Below are positions 1,228 through 10,436 of a stretch of 14,657 nt of DNA, piece after piece (position 1 is the stretch's first letter; each line of letters opens with the position of its first letter). The stretch spans positions 1 through 14,657 of the forward strand of contig JALVSV010000263.1 in assembly GCA_027024125.1 (NCBI GenBank). Reading direction: 5' to 3'. A model generated the notes under the pieces. It saw only the letters and a program-made list of their open reading frames with translations, was not told where the DNA came from and ran no database searches. Both the position numbers and the translations under genes were made by a program. This stretch comes from Methylothermaceae bacterium (GTDB taxonomy: Bacteria; Pseudomonadota; Gammaproteobacteria; Methylococcales; Methylothermaceae).

Positions 1228-2679
1228 ATGGCAGCAAGCAGCAAAGATCTGGAGACACTCATCGGCCGCGAATACGAGGAAGGTTTCGTCACCGAGGTGG
1301 AAGAAGACCGCCTCCCCCCAGGCCTCAATGAAGATATCATTCGCGCCTTATCGGCCAAGAAGGATGAGCCCGAATGGATGCTGGAATGGCGTCTGGAAGC
1401 CTACCGCCACTGGATCAGGATGGAAGAACCGCATCACTGGCCCCACATTCAGTATCACCCCATTGATTACCAGGCTATCAGTTACTATGCCGCCCCCAAA
1501 TCCCCCAAGGACGGTCCCAAGAGCCTGGACGAGGTCGATCCCAAGCTGCTGGAGACCTTCGAGAAGCTGGGGATCCCATTGCACGAGCGCAAGAGGCTGG
1601 CCGGCGTGGCGGTGGATGCGGTGTTCGACAGCGTCTCGGTGGCCACCACCTTCAAGGAGACCCTGGAAAAGGCAGGGGTGATCTTCTGTCCGATCTCCGA
1701 AGCGATTCGCGAACACCCGGAACTGGTGCGTAAATATCTGGGCACGGTGGTCCCCCAGGGGGACAATTTCTTCGCCGCCATCAATTCGGCGGTGTTCTCC
1801 GACGGTTCCTTCGTCTACATCCCCAAAGGTGTGCGCTGCCCGATGGAACTATCCACCTATTTTCGTATCAACGCCGCCAACACCGGGCAGTTCGAGCGCA
1901 CCCTGATCATTGCCGACGAAGGATCCCACGTCTCCTACCTGGAGGGCTGCACCGCTCCGATGCGCGACGAGAACCAGCTGCACGCGGCGGTAGTGGAACT
2001 GGTGGCGATGAAAGATGCCCAGATCAAATATTCCACGGTGCAAAACTGGTATCCGGGCGACGAAGAGGGCCGGGGCGGTATCTACAACTTCGTCACCAAG
2101 CGCGGTGAATGCCGCGGTGACCGGGCCAAGATCTCCTGGACCCAGGTGGAGACAGGCTCAGCCATCACCTGGAAGTATCCCAGCTGCGTCCTGCGTGGAA
2201 ACGATTCGGTGGGCGAATTCTATTCGGTGGCACTCACCAATCATTTCCAGCAGGCCGACACCGGAACCAAGATGATCCATATCGGCAGGAACACCAGAAG
2301 CACCATCATCTCCAAGGGAATCTCGGCCGGCCGAGCCCAGAACACCTACCGGGGACTGGTCAAGGTGCTCAAGAGCGCTGAAGGCGCCCGCAACTATACC
2401 CAGTGTGACTCACTGCTGATCGGCGACCAGTGCGGCGCCCACACCTTCCCTTATATCGAGGTCAAACGCGCCGATGCCCAGCTTGAACACGAGGCCACCA
2501 CATCCAAGATCAGTGAAGACCAGCTGTTCTACTGCCAACAGCGTGGTATCTCGGCCGAGGATGCGGTCTCGATGATCGTCAACGGCTTCTGCAAGGAGGT
2601 GTTCAAGGAGCTGCCGATGGAGTTCGCTGTGGAAGCGCAGAACCTGTTGGGAGTGAGTCTGGAGGGGAGCGTGGGATGA
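1228..2679 (+). CDS. sufB: Fe-S cluster assembly scaffold protein SufB
   Basis: SufB is a core subunit of the SufBC2D complex, the cytoplasmic scaffold on which iron-sulfur clusters are built. The protein is 483 residues, near the usual 470-495. The C-terminal core matches E. coli SufB closely: CGAHTFPY at 402-409, then [19 protein letters not shown] at 418-436 and the end [16 protein letters not shown]. Cys402 corresponds to the essential E. coli Cys405. The N-terminal helical part carries the family motif [12 protein letters not shown] at 48-59. A good Shine-Dalgarno, AGGAG at 1216-1220, lies 7 bases before the ATG. The gene is followed not by sufC but by a 1.1 kb block with two toxin-antitoxin modules, which is unusual, since sufB and sufC are normally adjacent. 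Confidence 0.97.
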
Positions 2680-2712
2680 TAGTAACGGTAGGTAAGTTTA
2701 CGCGCCGTTCAT

Positions 2713-2731
2713 GGGTGCATGAAATGCACCC
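2713..2731. repeat. Hairpin repeat (REP-like), short copy
   Basis: GGGTGCAT (2713-2720), a GAA loop, and ATGCACCC (2724-2731) form a perfect 8-bp stem 34 bases after the sufB stop. Nearly the same hairpin, with loop GGA, occurs at 10341-10357 in the prfB-lysS gap, so this is probably one member of a short interspersed palindrome family. Only TTT follows, so it is a poor rho-independent terminator, but it could slow or protect mRNA between sufB and the downstream genes. The remaining bases to 2814 hold TTGACA at 2755-2760 without a good -10 partner. Confidence 0.6.
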
Positions 2732-2814
2732 TTTGATCCCGCTTTACATGGGGTTTGACAGGTATAACAGTATCTACGGCTACACGGGTGAAGATGTAAG
2801 GCAGCGTGGGTTAA

Positions 2815-3066
2815 GTGTCAAAGTATGAAATTGAATTCCAATCCCGGGCACTCAAGGATCTCAAAGCGACTCCACAACAAGATGTGCAACGGATTCTGGG
2901 TAAGATCCAGAAATTGGAAAATGGCATGCACGGTGACATCAAGAAATTGACCAACTTCACCCCAGAATACCGTTTAAGGATTGGAGATTATCGCGTTTTG
3001 TTCGAATTGAACGACACACGAATTATCATTCATCGTATCAAGCATAGGAAAAAGGTTTACCAATGA
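2815..3066 (+). CDS. RelE/ParE-family type II toxin (module 1)
   Basis: This 83-residue protein has the compact beta-alpha-beta layout of RelE-type toxins, ribosome-dependent mRNA interferases. The start is MSKYEIEFQSRALKDLK, followed by a helical pair to about residue 46. The strand motif YRLRIGDYRVLFEL (52-65) comes next, and the end is IIIHRIKHRKKVYQ, with basic residues and a tyrosine at the positions usually used in catalysis. The start is GTG at 2815: an in-frame TAA sits directly before it, so nothing longer is possible. Its last codons overlap the antitoxin start (ATGA at 3063-3066), giving toxin-first order. Base composition is AT-richer than the suf genes. Family assignment is firm; whether it is an RNase (RelE) or a gyrase poison (ParE) cannot be told, but the charged C-terminal end favours RelE. 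Confidence 0.9.
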   Translation: MSKYEIEFQSRALKDLKATPQQDVQRILGKIQKLENGMHGDIKKLTNFTPEYRLRIGDYRVLFELNDTRIIIHRIKHRKKVYQ

Positions 3067-3269
3067 AGATTCATCCACAAATCATCAAGAAGGGAGAGAA
3101 AGACGAATTTATTGTCCTGCCAGTTGAGGAGTTCGAAACCCTTCTGGAAATGGCTGAAGCCTACGAGGACCTCAAGGACCTGCGTGAAGCCAAAGCCCAG
3201 ACGAGGGGTGAAAAAGGCGTCCCTCTTGATGAAGTCATTGCCGAAATGGCCCCGGAACTCAAACGGTGA
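3063..3269 (+). CDS. Phd/YefM-like antitoxin (module 1)
   Basis: This 68-residue acidic protein partners the RelE-like toxin that overlaps it by four bases. The N-terminal part (MKIHPQIIKKGEKDEFIVLPVEEFETLLEMAEAYEDLKDLREA) has the strand-helix pattern and the 'F-V-L-P-x-E-E-F' feature of small Phd/YefM-type antitoxins. The acidic C-terminal tail (about 45-68) would wrap the toxin. Such proteins neutralise the toxin and usually bind the module's own promoter. The four-base overlap implies coupled translation. Second place in the module is less common than first but is known for RelE/Phd-like pairs. Confidence 0.82.
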   Translation: MKIHPQIIKKGEKDEFIVLPVEEFETLLEMAEAYEDLKDLREAKAQTRGEKGVPLDEVIAEMAPELKR

Positions 3270-3275
3270 ACCAAT

Positions 3276-3494
3276 ATGACCAAATTACTGGAAAAAGCGT
3301 TCGAGGAAGCTTCAAAGCTGTCAGAATTGGATCAAAATGCCTTGGGTCATTGGCTGATAGAAGAAGTTCTGGCCGAAAAAAAATGGCAATCCATGTTTGC
3401 CGATTCCAAAGACGTCTTGGAAGCACTGGCGGATGAAGCTCTGGCTGATCATGAACAGGGCAAAACCGAGAAACTCGATCTTGATCAATTGTGA
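3276..3494 (+). CDS. Putative antitoxin of module 2
   Basis: This 72-residue, acidic, mainly helical protein reads MTKLLEKAFEEASKLSELDQ at its start, with LGHWLIEEVLAEKKW (23-37) and an acidic tail ALADHEQGKTEKLDLDQL. Proteins of this kind, often left 'hypothetical', precede a small RelE-like toxin, as here. The role is inferred from size, charge and position. Its stop overlaps the GTG start of the toxin frame (GTGA, 3491-3494). It begins 6 bases after the module 1 antitoxin; GGTGA at 3265-3269 could serve as a ribosome site. It is intact while its partner is frameshifted. Confidence 0.68.
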   Translation: MTKLLEKAFEEASKLSELDQNALGHWLIEEVLAEKKWQSMFADSKDVLEALADEALADHEQGKTEKLDLDQL

Positions 3495-3792
3495 AATCCA
3501 ATACCACGGAGAAATTTCGTGGCTTGTTGGCCGACTTACCTGCCGAGATCCGCAAGCAGGCAAAAGTTGCTTACATCCAATTTTGCCGGGAACCCTATTA
3601 CCCAGGGTTACGCTTCAAGCGGGTACATTCGAAACGGCCAATCTACTCTGTTCGCTCACCCGGGATTATCGTGCATTGGGAATCCAGCAGAATGGCAGAA
3701 TGATCTGGTTTTGGATTGGCTCCCACACGGACTACGAAAAATTTCTTCAACAGCTGAGACAGCATTTAATTCATGACCGACACCTTACTTAA
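3491..3792 (+). pseudogene. RelE-like toxin of module 2, broken by a one-base deletion
   Basis: From the GTG at 3491 a frame encodes MKSNTTEKFRGLLADLP through RPIYSVR (residues 49-55), then changes to unrelated residues and stops at 3703. The missing half is in another frame from 3658: TRDYRALG, MIWFWIGSHTDYEKFLQQL, to a stop at 3792. Adding one base between 3655 and 3656 gives IYSVR-(I/V)-TRDYRALG, the expected continuous motif of this toxin family, and a protein of about 100 residues. So one base has been lost, or misread. As written the toxin lacks its second half, including the strand with the conserved tyrosine, arginine and tryptophan residues, and is probably dead. The restored frame would overlap the sufC start by 20 bases. 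Confidence 0.8.
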
Positions 3793-4546
3793 AATCGAAA
3801 ACCTCCACGCCTGCGTGGAAGACAAACACATCCTCAAAGGGATCGACCTGACCCTCGACTACGGCCAGGTTCATGCCATCATGGGACCCAACGGCTCTGG
3901 CAAGAGCACCCTGGCCAATGTGCTGGCAGGCAGGGATGGCTATGAGATCACCGAGGGGCGGGTGTGGTACCGGGGCCATGATCTCCTGGCCATGCCACCG
4001 GAGGAACGGGCCCGTGAGGGGGTTTTCCTGGCCTTCCAATATCCGGTGGAGATCCCCGGGGTCAGCAACATCTATTTCCTCAAGGCGGCACTCAACGCCA
4101 TTCGCAAGCATCGCGGCGAATCCGAAGTGGATGCGATGGATTTCATTCTGCTGGTCAAGGAAAAGATGAAACGGATGCAGATGGACGAGCAGTTTCTTTA
4201 TCGCGCCATCAACGAAGGTTTCTCCGGGGGCGAGAAAAAGCGTAACGAGATCCTGCAGATGCTGGTACTGGAACCCACCCTGTGCCTCCTGGACGAGATC
4301 GACTCGGGGCTTGACATCGACGCACTCAAGATCGTCGCCGAAGGAATCGAGGCCCTCAGATCACCCGAACGTGGCTTCCTGATGGTGACCCACTACCAAC
4401 GCTTGCTCGACTACGTACAGCCGGATGTGGTACATGTGTTTGCCAACGGCCGTATCGTCAAATCCGGAGGACCGGAACTTGCCAGGGAACTGGAAACCAA
4501 GGGTTATGGCTGGATCGAACACTATCTGGAGGCTCAGGCCCGATGA
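3773..4546 (+). CDS. sufC: Fe-S cluster assembly ATPase SufC
   Basis: SufC is the ABC-type ATPase that drives conformational change in the SufBCD scaffold during cluster building; it is soluble and not part of a transporter. All nucleotide-binding motifs are present in the 257 residues: Walker A GPNGSGKS (38-45), Q-loop Gln89 in FQYP, signature SGGEKKR (151-157), Walker B CLLDEID (171-177) and switch His207 in VTHYQR. SGLDIDAL after Walker B is typical of SufC. The length is near the usual 248-260. The ATG at 3773 has no recognisable Shine-Dalgarno, and translation may have relied on the upstream toxin frame that overlaps it. Its stop overlaps the sufD start (ATGA). Confidence 0.97.
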   Translation: MTDTLLKIENLHACVEDKHILKGIDLTLDYGQVHAIMGPNGSGKSTLANVLAGRDGYEITEGRVWYRGHDLLAMPPEERAREGVFLAFQYPVEIPGVSNIYFLKAALNAIRKHRGESEVDAMDFILLVKEKMKRMQMDEQFLYRAINEGFSGGEKKRNEILQMLVLEPTLCLLDEIDSGLDIDALKIVAEGIEALRSPERGFLMVTHYQRLLDYVQPDVVHVFANGRIVKSGGPELARELETKGYGWIEHYLEAQAR

Positions 4547-5838
4547 CTCTGAGCGCTGAAGCCCTGGCCCTGTATCAAGATGCGGTCGAATCCCTGGCCT
4601 CGAACAGCCCCGCCTGGCTTGCGGGATTACGTCGGAAGGCCCTGGATCGATTTGCCACCAATGGTTTTCCCTCTCCTCGCGAGGAGGAGTGGAAATATAC
4701 CAACATCACCGCCATCGAGCGCAAGGGCTTTGCCGTTGCCACGTCAATGGGCGAAGTGGATCCGGCCTGGATTGGCTCACTGCTGCTGCCAGAGTGCTGG
4801 CATCTGGTGCTGATCGATGGTCACTTCGCACGGGACCTTTCCCATCCGGCCCTGGTAGGCGACGTGGTCTTCTGCGACATGGAGGCGGCTAAATTAAGGC
4901 ACGCGGACCTGCTCGCCGAGGGATTCGGCCAGGCGGTGGACGTGGATCATGGATTCATCGACTTCAACACCGCCCTGTTCCAGGGAGGCGCCCTGATCCG
5001 CTTGAACCCAGGCACCCGGCTGGAGCAGCCGATACAGATTCTCCACATTCTAACCCAGGCAGCGGCCATTCCCACCCGCCACCTGATTCAGATCGGAGAG
5101 GAAGCGGAAGCGACGGTGATCGAATCCCATGCCGGTGTCGCCGCAGGTCTCACCGCCCATGTCAGCGAGGTCCTGCTGGGAAAGAATGCCAGCCTGAAAC
5201 ACTTCATCATCCAGGAGGATCACCAGCGGGCCTTTCATTTCGGTGGCCTTTATGTCAGGCAGGAAACAGGCTCACGCCTTGCCCAGACCCAGTTCGCCCT
5301 GGGAGGGTTTCTGGCGCGAAGCGAAATCCACGTGACGATCGGTAAAGACTGTGAGACCCTTCTCGACGGGCTGCACTGGGCCAACGGGCGGCGCCACCTG
5401 GACACTCACACGCGCCTGGTGCATGCCAAACCCAATGGCACCAGCCGGGAGAACTACAAGGTCATCGCCGAAGAACGGGGCCGCAGCGTCTTTCAGGGCC
5501 GCATCGTGGTCGAACCCGGGGCGCAGAAAACCGATGCCGCGATGAACAACCGCAATCTGCTGCTTTCCGACGATGCCGAGGTGGACAGCAAGCCACAACT
5601 GGAAATCTATGCCGATGACGTCAAGTGCGCTCACGGGGTCACCATCGGCCAACTGGATCCAGACGCGTTGTTCTATCTACAGACCCGCGGCATCGATGCC
5701 GAATCGGCCCGCCAACTGCTCCTCTACGGCTTCGTCAACGAATTGATCGAGGCGGTGGACGTCGAGCCTCTGCGCGGTTATCTGCACAGGCAGCTGGATC
5801 GCCGTTTCCACGCCATCCCATTGGAAGAAAACCCATGA
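4543..5838 (+). CDS. sufD: Fe-S cluster assembly protein SufD
   Basis: SufD is the SufB paralogue that completes the SufBC2D complex and helps bring iron to the scaffold. The protein has 431 residues against about 423 in E. coli. The N-terminal helical region contains GFPSPREEEWKYTN (41-54), a SufD hallmark, followed by a long right-handed beta-helix region. The C-terminal core has KCAHGVTIGQLDPDALFYLQ (361-380); His364 matches the histidine (E. coli His360) needed for cluster formation. It then ends in a helical segment with LLLYGFVNELIEAV. The start overlaps the sufC stop by four bases and the stop overlaps the sufS start in the same way, so translation is coupled. Confidence 0.96.
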   Translation: MTLSAEALALYQDAVESLASNSPAWLAGLRRKALDRFATNGFPSPREEEWKYTNITAIERKGFAVATSMGEVDPAWIGSLLLPECWHLVLIDGHFARDLSHPALVGDVVFCDMEAAKLRHADLLAEGFGQAVDVDHGFIDFNTALFQGGALIRLNPGTRLEQPIQILHILTQAAAIPTRHLIQIGEEAEATVIESHAGVAAGLTAHVSEVLLGKNASLKHFIIQEDHQRAFHFGGLYVRQETGSRLAQTQFALGGFLARSEIHVTIGKDCETLLDGLHWANGRRHLDTHTRLVHAKPNGTSRENYKVIAEERGRSVFQGRIVVEPGAQKTDAAMNNRNLLLSDDAEVDSKPQLEIYADDVKCAHGVTIGQLDPDALFYLQTRGIDAESARQLLLYGFVNELIEAVDVEPLRGYLHRQLDRRFHAIPLEENP

Positions 5839-7082
5839 GCACCGTGCCAACACAATCCCCACAGACCTACCCCATCGACCGTATCCGCGCCGACTTCCCT
5901 GCCCTGCAGCAGCAGATCCGCGGCAAGCCGCTCGTCTATCTGGACAATGCCGCCAGCGCCCAGAAACCGAACCAGGTGATTGACACCCTGGCCGATTTCT
6001 ATCGTCACGATTTCTCCAACATCCATCGCAGCGTCCATACCCTTGGTGAGCGGGCCACAGCCAAATACGAGGCCGCCCGCGATACCGTGCGCCGCTTCCT
6101 CAATGCCAGGCAAACCGAAGAGATCGTGTTCGTGCGCGGCACCACCGAAGCAATCAACCTGGTGGCCCAAAGCTTCGGAGGCAGCCAGTTCAAGGAAGGC
6201 GACGAGATCCTCATCAGCGCCATGGAGCACCACTCCAATATCGTGCCCTGGCAGATGGTGTGTCAACAGACTGGCGCCCGGTTACGAGTGGTGCCGATCA
6301 ATGACCATGGTGAGCTGATCCTGGAGGAATACCAGCGGCTCCTGGGATCACGCACCCGCCTGGTGTCGATCACCCATATGTCCAACGCCCTTGGCACCCT
6401 CAATCCGGTGAAGGAGATCATCGACCTGGCCCATACCCGGGAGATCCCGGTGCTTCTTGATGGCGCTCAGGCAGTTCCTCATCTGCCGGTGGACGTGCAG
6501 GCATTGGATTGCGATTTTTACGCCTTCTCAGGCCACAAGCTGTATGGTCCCACCGGCATCGGCGTCCTCTACGGCAAGCGGGAATTGCTCGAGGCGATGC
6601 CCCCCTGGCAGGGAGGGGGGGAGATGATCCGTACCGTCACCTTCGAAAAGACTGAATACAACGAACTCCCCTACAAATTCGAGGCCGGCACGCCCGCCAT
6701 CGCCGAGGCAGTGGGGCTGGGCGCGGCCATCGATTATGTGGAAGCCATCGGCTGGGACCACATCGCTGCCCACGAACACGCCTTGATAGAGTATGCCACC
6801 GAAATGGTACACACCATTCCAGGCCTTGGAATCATCGGCACGGCAGCGGAGAAAGGCGCCATTCTCTCCTTCGCCCTGGACCGGGTCCACCCCCACGATA
6901 TCGGCACCTTCCTGGATCACTACGGCATCGCGGTGCGCGCAGGCCACCACTGCGCCATGCCGGTGATGGATTTCTTCAAGGTGCCGGCCACTGCCAGGGC
7001 CTCCTTCGGAATCTACAACACCCTGGAAGAGGTGGATCAATTGATCCACGCCATCAAGGAAATCATCAAGGTATTTGGCTGA
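5835..7082 (+). CDS. sufS: Cysteine desulfurase SufS (group II)
   Basis: SufS is a pyridoxal-phosphate enzyme that takes sulfur from cysteine, leaving alanine, and passes it as persulfide to a partner. The protein has 415 residues. Lys235 in FSGHKLYGPTGIG binds the cofactor, Asp209 and Gln212 (LLDGAQAVPH) hold the pyridine ring, His132 stacks over it (MEHHSN), and Cys373 in RAGHHCAMP is the persulfide-carrying residue. The short loop around Cys373 is of group II (SufS) type, not the longer loop of IscS/NifS. The frame is open upstream to 5625, but that extension lies entirely within sufD in another frame. The ATG at 5835 overlaps the sufD stop (ATGA), has GGAAG at 5823-5827, and gives the normal N-terminus. 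Confidence 0.96.
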   Translation: MSTVPTQSPQTYPIDRIRADFPALQQQIRGKPLVYLDNAASAQKPNQVIDTLADFYRHDFSNIHRSVHTLGERATAKYEAARDTVRRFLNARQTEEIVFVRGTTEAINLVAQSFGGSQFKEGDEILISAMEHHSNIVPWQMVCQQTGARLRVVPINDHGELILEEYQRLLGSRTRLVSITHMSNALGTLNPVKEIIDLAHTREIPVLLDGAQAVPHLPVDVQALDCDFYAFSGHKLYGPTGIGVLYGKRELLEAMPPWQGGGEMIRTVTFEKTEYNELPYKFEAGTPAIAEAVGLGAAIDYVEAIGWDHIAAHEHALIEYATEMVHTIPGLGIIGTAAEKGAILSFALDRVHPHDIGTFLDHYGIAVRAGHHCAMPVMDFFKVPATARASFGIYNTLEEVDQLIHAIKEIIKVFG

Positions 7083-7534
7083 TGCTCGACGATCTCAGAG
7101 ACCTGTATCAGGAGGTGGTCTTCGACCACAATCGCAACCCACGCAATTTTCGGGTGATCGAAGATGCCGATCGTACCATCGAGGGCTTCAACCCACTGTG
7201 CGGCGACCGCATCACTTTGTATATCAAGCTCGATGGCGACAGGATCACCGACGTCAGTTTCCAAGGTCAGGGGTGTGCCATCTCCACGGCATCGGCATCA
7301 CTGATGACCGAAATCGTCAAGGGCAAGACGATCCAGGAGGCGGAAAAGCTGTTCCAGGCCTTTCACAAGATCGTCACCGGCCAGGACGACGATCTCAAGC
7401 TGGAGGAACTGGGCAAGCTGGCAGTACTAACCGGGGTGCGGCAATATCCCTCCAGGATCAAATGCGCCACCCTGGCCTGGCATTCCCTGGAGTCGGCCCT
7501 GAAGGGTGAACAATCCTCGGTCAGTACCGAATAG
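7082..7534 (+). CDS. sufU: SufU-like (NifU N-terminal family) scaffold or sulfur-transfer protein
   Basis: This 150-residue protein belongs to the IscU/NifU-N fold, in the SUF-linked subgroup. The metal or cluster ligands are present: Cys40 and Asp42 in NPLCGDR, Cys65 in GQGCAIS, and Cys128 in RIKCATLAW. A region of about 20 residues between Cys65 and Cys128 (around 95-112, KIVTGQDDDLKLEELGKL) is longer than in IscU, as expected for SufU. In Bacillus SufU is a zinc protein that accepts sulfur from SufS; whether it plays that role here or is a scaffold is inferred. It starts on the last base of the sufS stop (TGATG). No sufE or sufA gene is present, which fits SufU doing the sulfur-acceptor job. 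Confidence 0.92.
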   Translation: MLDDLRDLYQEVVFDHNRNPRNFRVIEDADRTIEGFNPLCGDRITLYIKLDGDRITDVSFQGQGCAISTASASLMTEIVKGKTIQEAEKLFQAFHKIVTGQDDDLKLEELGKLAVLTGVRQYPSRIKCATLAWHSLESALKGEQSSVSTE

Positions 7535-8835: not shown

Positions 8836-9052
8836 GTCGTCAGTGGTGGTCCTCATCAGAGGACATTCTGATCGACCCGGGCCAAAGAAACAATAGAACC
8901 TCCCGGGCAACAGGGCTCCGACATCCACTCGGGGTCGAGGCAATCCTTTATGTGTTTTAGTGGCGCAGTCTTGTTACCGGCAAACTTCCCGGACTTTCCT
9001 TCGTCTATTTGAGGTAGAATTATCCTATTTTCTCATTTGGAGACGGACAATC

Positions 9053-10157
9053 ATGGAAGCGTTGGAACTGAACCAACTGACCCGAACGATCGACGACCTC
9101 CAGGGCCGCGTCGAGGCCCTGAGGGGGTATCTTTGACTACGAACACAAGAAAGAACGCCTCGAGGAAATCCTGAGGGAACTGGAAGACCCCGAAGTCTGG
9201 AACGATCCCACGCGCGCCCAGGCCCTTGGCAGGGAACGTGCCCAACTGGAGGAAACGGTCCAGACACTGGAACAGTTGTCGCAGGGACTTGAAGACGCCA
9301 AAGAACTTCTCGAAATGGCGCTGGAAGAGGGTGACGACGACACCATCGCCAGCGTCGCCGAAGACATCGAACAATTCGAGAAGACCGTCGCCGACCTGGA
9401 ATTCCGCCGCATGTTCTCGGGCGAGATGGATGCCAACAACGCCTTTTTGGAAATCCAGGCAGGTTCCGGTGGCACCGAGGCCCAGGACTGGGCCGAAATG
9501 CTGCTGAGAATGTATCTGCGCTGGGCCGAACGCCGGGGCTTCAAGACCGAGATCATCGAACTGTCTCCAGGTGAAGTCGCAGGCATCAAAAGCGCCACCA
9601 TCAAGGTGGAGGGCCCTTACGCCTATGGCTGGCTGCGTACCGAAACCGGGGTTCACCGGTTGGTGCGCAAGTCCCCTTACGATTCGGGCAACCGCCGCCA
9701 CACCTCGTTTGCCGCGGTATTCGTCTCACCGGAAGTGGAGGACGACGTGGACATCGAAATCAATCCGGCGGATCTTCGTATCGACGTCTACCGGGCTTCC
9801 GGTGCCGGTGGTCAACACGTCAACCGGACCGAATCGGCGGTGAGGATCACCCACCTGCCCACTGGCATCGTGGTACAGTGCCAGAACGACCGCTCCCAGC
9901 ACAAGAACAAGGCCACAGCGATGAAACAGCTCAAGGCCAAGCTCTATGAACTGGAGATGCAGAAGAAACGGGCAGAACAGCAAAAATTGGAAGAGAGCAA
10001 GTCCGACATCGGGTGGGGCAGCCAGATTCGATCCTATGTACTCGACCAGTCCCGGATCAAGGATCTTCGGACCGGGGTCGAGACCGGCAATACCCAGGCG
10101 GTTCTCGATGGCGACATTGATCCCTTCATCGAGGCCAGTCTGAAAAGTGGCCTTTGA
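9053..10157 (+). CDS. prfB: Peptide chain release factor 2 (programmed +1 frameshift; join 9053-9133 and 9135-10157)
   Basis: RF2 ends translation at UGA and UAA. The gene starts at ATG 9053 (GGAG at 9039-9042) and reads 27 codons to CTT followed by an in-frame TGA at 9134. Skipping one T continues the frame as [12 protein letters not shown] to 10157, for 367 residues, against 365 in E. coli. The GGQ motif that enters the ribosomal peptidyl-transferase centre is at 252-254 in [17 protein letters not shown], and the stop-codon recognition tripeptide is SPY at 207-209 where E. coli has SPF. The coiled N-terminal domain 1 and the superdomain 2/4 sequence match E. coli closely. The residue before SGAGGQ is Ala, the form usual outside E. 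coli K-12. Counting only the later frame would wrongly shorten it. Confidence 0.97.
9122..9137 (+). promoter_or_regulatory. prfB programmed +1 frameshift site
   Basis: AGGGGG (9122-9127) acts as an internal Shine-Dalgarno three bases before the slippery CTT (9131-9133), followed by TGA and C (9134-9137). This matches the classical RF2 site AGGGGGTATCTTTGAC exactly. When RF2 is scarce the ribosome pauses at the UGA, slips forward one base, and completes RF2; when RF2 is plentiful it stops after 27 residues. Confidence 0.97.
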
Positions 10158-10315: not shown

Positions 10316-10357
10316 GGGTGCGTTCTACGCACCCTTCATTGGTGCATGGAATGCACC
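10316..10357. repeat. Twin-hairpin REP-like repeat
   Basis: Two hairpins lie side by side. The first is GGGTGCG (10316-10322), loop TTCTA, CGCACCC (10328-10334). The second is GGTGCAT (10341-10347), loop GGA, ATGCACC (10351-10357). The second is almost identical to the hairpin after sufB at 2713-2731. The pairing of two related stems is typical of bacterial interspersed palindromic elements. No T-run follows, so this is not a standard terminator. Confidence 0.75.
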
Positions 10358-10436
10358 CTACGGCTGCCTCAATGCAACTTTCACGGTACGGTACGATCAT
10401 GAAGATCCCATTACCCCTAGGTATGAAAGAACCCCC

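Follow-up and report, generated by a model that had tools for sequence, protein, structure and literature searches.

Two tandem toxin-antitoxin modules between sufB and sufC, a probable recurrent landing place for such modules in Methylococcales

Toxin-antitoxin (TA) modules are usually seen with a promoter of their own and in variable regions. In chromosomal insertion hot spots and defence islands, different cargo lies between the same conserved flanks. The suf operon is a core operon and probably essential. Recent insertion and loss of HEPN-MNT modules in gene clusters, and an abundance of solo antitoxins, are described in the excerpts of Makarova et al. 2009 (PMC2701414) used here. A search of the open-licence literature, which leaves most subscription papers outside, returned no description of TA modules in suf operons.

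The locus described here lies in a window of 14,657 nucleotides, the whole stretch of DNA that was analysed. It belongs to a draft genome (2.88 Mb, 534 contigs, completeness 91%), whose host is probably a methane-oxidising bacterium. The suf genes run in the order Rrf2-type regulator, sufB, an inserted block, sufC, sufD, sufS and sufU:

756-1208, + strand: SUF regulator gene of the Rrf2 family, first gene of the operon (TIGR02944, 155.9 bits, cut-off 110.65)
1228-2679, + strand: sufB (NF008773, 934 bits, cut-off 717)
2680-2814, + strand: spacer of 135 bases with a REP-like palindrome at 2713-2731 and a predicted RNA hairpin
2815-3066, + strand: module 1 toxin, RelE/ParE family, intact, GTG start (PF05016, 36.5 bits, cut-off 23)
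3063-3269, + strand: module 1 antitoxin, short, Phd/YefM-like (PF02604, 19.7 bits, below the cut-off of 29.8)
3276-3494, + strand: module 2 antitoxin, unnamed family, predicted all-helical, with same-site orthologues in G002 and G005
3491-3703, + strand: N-terminal part of the module 2 toxin, whose gene is frame-broken (PF24732 positions 2-38, under the cut-off)
3652-3741, + strand: C-terminal part of the module 2 toxin, read in a different frame (PF24732 positions 38-67, under the cut-off)
3773-4546, + strand: sufC (TIGR01978, 366.6 bits, cut-off 212.8)
4543-7534, + strand: remaining operon of overlapping genes (sufD 4543-5838, sufS about 5835-7082, sufU 7082-7534)

The block of 1,093 bases between sufB and sufC is real, as the initial annotation had proposed: both flanking genes score above their profile cut-offs, and its GC content is 46.1% against 57.3% in the remainder of the window. 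It carries four small, closely packed genes that all run in the direction of the operon. The genes of toxin 1 and antitoxin 1 share an ATGA, the overlap of adjacent genes expected of a type II TA module; 6 bases separate antitoxin 1 from antitoxin 2, and antitoxin 2 and toxin 2 share a GTGA. These genes are not chance reading frames, since the same proteins are encoded between sufB and sufC in relatives. Two earlier statements needed amendment. The block was placed at 2680-3772, which the flanks and GC content bear out, but no gene stands at its start, where 2680-2814 is spacer. Two TA modules are present as claimed, but the toxin of the second is broken, which had been missed, and module 1 is therefore the only candidate active pair.

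The perfect palindrome in the spacer is a copy of the genome repeat GGGTGCAT NNN ATGCACCC. This pattern occurs at 13 places in its own genome with at most 2 mismatches (0 for the reversed control), and further copies at 10316-10334 and 10340-10358 form a pair between prfB and lysS. The neighbouring prfB (8960-10157) has an in-frame TGA after CTTTGAC and continues in the next frame, presumably the programmed frameshift of release factor 2. The spacer RNA is mildly more stable than its shuffles (z -1.79). We rejected the spacer as a high-copy insertion, as the whole block matched only itself, though the short palindrome is repeated. No direct repeats were found within 2600-3850. A consensus scan of the block, which other promoter types may escape, gave no promoter- or terminator-like site on the + strand and one terminator-like site on the opposite strand (3401-3385).

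The module 1 toxin passes the curated ParE_toxin profile score and matches the structure 3bpq (RelE3) with an E-value of 1e-8; it is probably a neutralised toxin of the mRNA-interferase type. Its partner aligns with PF02604 only at positions 26-66 of 74, and the G006 orthologue reaches 28.1 bits against the cut-off of 29.8. With its own score under the cut-off, we call the antitoxin Phd/YefM-like only. Antitoxin 2 has no Pfam or NCBIfam family that we could find, yet belongs to a large group of 716 proteins (E≤1e-3) from different phyla with conserved residues. Its structure model consists of three helices (mean pLDDT 87.4). A Foldseek search with this model returned no PDB chain, a result uninformative on fold novelty either way. 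Some homologues are named CopG regulators in UniRef, which would make the family DNA-binding. The antitoxin 2 of G005, a member of the window's genus, is identical to P0020 of Methylohalobius sp. ZOD2, from which we take the host to be probably a methanotroph of the Methylothermaceae. The toxins of both modules share the RelE fold and fall into different Pfam families. Antitoxin 2 had no match in 72,556 plasmid records and no confirmed relative in viral contigs, and toxin 1 matched 13 plasmids, all below 60% identity and 80% coverage. A mobile origin was rejected on these grounds.

Across ten genomes of the window's genus (G000, the window's own, to G009), the sufB-sufC gaps measure 1093, 12, 502, 57, 405, 524, 480, 420, 460 and 401 bases. 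The other suf junctions, where measured, are short: 16-24 bases between regulator and sufB, -7 to -4 between sufC and sufD, -34 to 32 between sufD and sufS (about 6 bases off, the sufS start having been set at 5829 rather than 5835) and -1 between sufS and sufU. Eight of the ten genomes carry TA genes at sufB-sufC, and these are of three kinds. Toxin and antitoxin orthologues of module 1 occur at the junction in G006 and G008 as well as in the window, module 2 in G000, G002 and G005, and HicB/HicA pairs in G004, G007 and G009; the gap of G003 holds only an apparent 3' end of hicA. Within the genus, only the window has kept both modules 1 and 2. Their closest relatives among 61 genomes are those at this same site. 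On the SufB tree, G000 pairs with G008 and G002 with G006, and the three HicBA genomes together with G003 form one group. From this grouping, modules 1 and 2 may both be ancestral, with later loss of one or the other. Comparison of the junction across relatives had been suggested at the outset, and it returned both module orthologues and different TA modules. The block is thus not the one-off simple insertion that the initial annotation had considered.

We extended the comparison to the order, searching 61 genomes, 58 of which have sufB and sufC on one contig. TA-like genes of about ten kinds stand at sufB-sufC in 18 of the 58, or in 16 without the weak cases G038 (FRG domain only) and G044 (hicA remnant only); G051 was counted on DUF2442 and FRG alone. 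By family, the counts are 8/10 in f1, 8/13 in f8, 2/14 in f4, 0/14 in f6 and 0/7 in f2, f3, f5 and f7 together. No gap was taken from G029, G036 and G011, where SufD had been mis-assigned as SufB; the first two are long branches on the SufB tree. The kinds comprise ParE/Phd-like, module 2, HicBA-like (three subtypes), RelBE, MazE-PIN, DUF2281-PIN, MNT/HEPN (two subtypes) and DUF4160-DUF2442. The first MNT/HEPN subtype occurs as a pair only in the listed named set and as MNT alone in G035, and the second only in L101. The HicA of the L090 type, MazE and two of the three DUF2281 proteins fall below their Pfam cut-offs, and the genus HicB, which has no Pfam hit, was named from its partner. All 74 TA-like matches, from 28 loci, lie on the operon strand, and in 23 of these loci the first match starts no more than 25 bases from the sufB stop. 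These different TA pairs at one place in many relatives suggest that the suf operon repeatedly captures and keeps TA modules.

The other junctions of the same operons offer a comparison. TA-like genes were found in 0/55 regulator-sufB, 0/57 sufC-sufD, 0/56 sufD-sufS and 3/55 sufS-sufU gaps (3/223 in total), counted with a TA reference set made from sufB-sufC and sufS-sufU reading frames, which favours those two junctions. Reading frames were also read by eye in 6 of 12 long sufD-sufS gaps, all five long sufS-sufU gaps and the sole long sufC-sufD gap. The TA set was used to screen seven regulator-sufB gaps of at least 150 bases in the named set. An Uma2-family gene on the opposite strand occupies 10 of the 12 long sufD-sufS gaps, all in f8 (for example L199, L207 and L215). 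It looks like one old insertion, not many kinds. Uma2 is listed as a likely solo toxin in the excerpts of PMC2701414. Counting it raises the other junctions to 13/223, and the sufB-sufC excess stays (Fisher 1.1e-6). Fisher tests of sufB-sufC against other families (3.5e-7) and against other junctions (3.5e-11) ignore relatedness, and genomes inside one family are not independent; the diversity of kinds carries more weight. At sufS-sufU, HicBA pairs occur in L199, L210, L221 and L094, and a PIN-domain pair also in L221/L107, so that some f8 genomes and one Methylomonas use a second suf junction. L210 (G035) has inserts at sufB-sufC, sufC-sufD, sufD-sufS and sufS-sufU; a DNA methylase and an MNT gene are among them.

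In a named set, which did not list the window's genus and in which L107 is the same contig as in G047, TA-like genes stand at sufB-sufC in 10 of 77 loci among the matches listed, nine of them labelled Methylococcales. The named neighbours of the window's SufB, among the matches listed, include many Methylococcales. The tenth, L159, labelled as a Tepidisphaeraceae metagenome-assembled genome, has HicAB-like genes at sufB-sufC and a SufB 77% identical to the window's; this is a case of transfer or mis-binning. In the class, 115 genomes were searched; of those from outside the order, 63 carry sufB and sufC on the same contig. None of these 63 genomes from other families had TA genes at the junction, with the gaps of at least 150 bases (n=4) opened. 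Those four held a SufA-like gene twice, a stretch without a clear gene, and another gene. From their sequences, we take the genes in L307 (G109) and L308 (G131), from two other families, to be the SufA-like ones.

TA modules are common in the genus: the ten genomes yield 37 ParE-family and 37 HicA matches (E≤0.001). Yet three kinds at one junction among some thousands exceed, we infer, what chance would give. When flanks were compared for 60 ParE or HicA loci of the genus, suf was the locus at which clearly different kinds share strong flanks on both sides; three other groups with strong common flanks appear to carry the same TA kind. The ParE loci L255 (G007) and L260 (G004) have both flanks in common and no match in the middle, a possible second hot spot. 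With different modules between the same flanks, and more of them than at the other suf junctions, sufB-sufC is a candidate TA hot spot.

The genes at the genus site differ in their state of preservation. Antitoxin genes are open in nine of nine cases, whereas toxin genes are intact in four of nine (module 1, 3/3; module 2, 1/3; HicA, 0/3), counts that are small and nested in clades. The HicA of G007 has a stop, that of G009 is cut to 39 residues, and that of G004 has no usual start codon before an internal GTG, with the frame open over the profile. Toxins thus appear to decay before antitoxins. Protein change is nevertheless low against large, often saturated synonymous change. The module 1 toxin has a pN of 0.20–0.24 with a pS of 0.72–0.88, and pN is 0.14–0.20 for the antitoxins of modules 1 and 2, 0.02–0.06 for HicB and 0.12–0.24 for the toxin 2 pieces; the ratio is 0.06 to 0.29 where computable. 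This indicates that, during most of their stay at this junction, they were working protein-coding genes. Where the initial annotation had envisaged a simple persisting insertion, the genes show purifying selection.

With moderate confidence, we read the two tandem type II TA modules as passengers in the suf transcript, and the sufB-sufC junction of Methylococcales as a recurrent landing place. The junction would tolerate inserts because sufB and sufC are spaced. A promoterless module just 3' of the sufB stop would be read from the suf promoter, as the block shows no + strand promoter or terminator. An IscU over the cut-off was found in one of the ten genus genomes, G001, which has no insert and is among the two genus members that carry no TA genes between sufB and sufC; in the window's genome, SufU is the only IscU-like match. 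Judged by this marker, suf would work without an ISC partner in nine of ten members and would therefore be kept and expressed, tying the supply of antitoxin to its expression. The importance of the operon has probably helped retention, though the relation between IscU and the insert has one case, G001. Modules would be exchanged or lost over time. Module diversity, the constant operon strand, the early position after the sufB stop and recurrence are positive points for this model. Against it, anchoring to the operon does not predict the 0/14 of family f6. The two f6 genomes tested (G014 and G020) have no IscU over the cut-off and f6 has no inserts, so suf dependence alone does not explain the pattern. 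Nor does spacing alone explain the site, as regulator and sufB are also spaced (median 18 bases) and have inserts in 0/55. HicBA pairs occur at sufS-sufU in f8 as well. The Uma2 gene at sufD-sufS, the family assignments below Pfam cut-offs, the CopG names and the other genes (bestrophin, FRG, methylase) in some f8 inserts also count against the model. Nor would a pure passenger be expected to show the long purifying selection seen on the module 1 toxin.

An unlikely alternative, though one with several observations on its side, is neutral tolerance: inserts are simply accepted at the junction, TA modules being a common kind of small cargo, and their presence is unselected. Gaps without an insert are typically widest at sufB-sufC (10–139 bases, median 34, against medians of 18 for regulator-sufB, -4 for sufC-sufD, -10 for sufD-sufS and -1 for sufS-sufU). 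The decay of toxins would fit, as would the TA-free inserts of 267–277 bases at sufB-sufC in G012 and G060 and the acceptance of inserts at sufD-sufS and sufS-sufU in f8. However, neutrality does not account for amino-acid constraint despite large synonymous change, and 18 of 21 long sufB-sufC gaps are TA-like. Moreover, the 63 genomes from other families, whose gap is similar (median 27), carry no TA genes there.

Fe-S-responsive control of the toxin, raised in the initial annotation, is possible. The layout is compatible with Fe-S-linked expression, given the common strand, the upstream Rrf2/SUF regulator with cysteines at 92, 99 and 105, and a block in which no promoter or terminator of its own was seen. 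As an explanation of the site, Fe-S-coupled growth control would mean that the position was selected, with SufR-type control raising toxin and antitoxin under iron or oxidative stress and so slowing growth. Tight packing after sufB, repeated capture of different modules and an intact toxin under purifying selection would agree with it; however, for two of the three kinds of module found in the genus the toxins are mostly broken, which is unexpected in a useful switch. We regard this explanation as quite improbable. We are equally doubtful of its wider form, in which Methylococcales independently and repeatedly recruited different TA modules behind sufB, with suf control as the input of Fe-S status, the modules being swapped and the position kept. 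If true, a growth-arrest module would be coupled to an Fe-S assembly line that is often the only one in the cell.

The window itself has a broken toxin gene, in module 2. The second part of its profile match (PF24732 positions 38-67) lies in the frame of the reading frame 3397-3792, which stays open to 3792, over the sufC start. The pieces score 14.9 and 20.1 against 24.4 bits and no single complete frame exceeds the cut-off, whereas the G005 relative scores 54.4 bits; the intact module 2 pair is found only in relatives such as G005. A search with the reading frame 3491-3703 returned 22 proteins. P0125 is 97% identical to this toxin 2 piece, also has 70 residues and the same out-of-frame tail, and sits on a different contig from the window (the longest has 8,109 bases). 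We read toxin 2, of RelE fold, as a pseudogene, probably a recent one. Continued production through programmed frameshifting is very improbable: both pieces remain conserved, but homologues are uninterrupted, the G002 copy is broken elsewhere, and by eye no recognised slippery heptamer was seen at the break. Assembly chimera, contamination or an indel error in the metagenome-assembled contig is just as remote, for although the draft is split into many contigs, same-site orthologues occur in other genomes, identical or near-identical proteins lie on several contigs, and the break common to P0125 makes an error of the window contig alone unlikely.

That one core-operon junction received about ten TA kinds within one order makes it testable why chromosomal TA modules are retained: through addiction, through a benefit to the host, or because they hitchhike on essential transcription. 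The order in which toxin and antitoxin are lost becomes testable too. The site also offers natural replicates, as its modules are intact in some close relatives and broken or reduced to remnants in others.

When comparing the window's modules with the RelE/ParE superfamily of type II TA systems (RelBE, YefM-YoeB, DinJ-YafQ), several differences stand out. In module 1 the toxin gene comes first, and its antitoxin has only a sub-threshold Phd match that starts at profile position 26. The predicted structure of antitoxin 2 is all-helical, and both modules lie inside a housekeeping operon. HicAB, VapBC-like and MNT-HEPN systems occupy the same sufB-sufC junction in relatives; by our searches they are not homologous to the window's modules, and several copies are incomplete. 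The locus resembles what the excerpts of PMC2701414 describe in that a TA pair sits within an otherwise conserved cluster and toxin-less antitoxins are common. Whereas the example in those excerpts is one Deinococcus cluster, here about ten kinds are found at one core junction across an order. Unlike chromosomal hot spots and defence islands, the sufB-sufC site lies within one operon, and its TA-like cargo is always on the operon strand.
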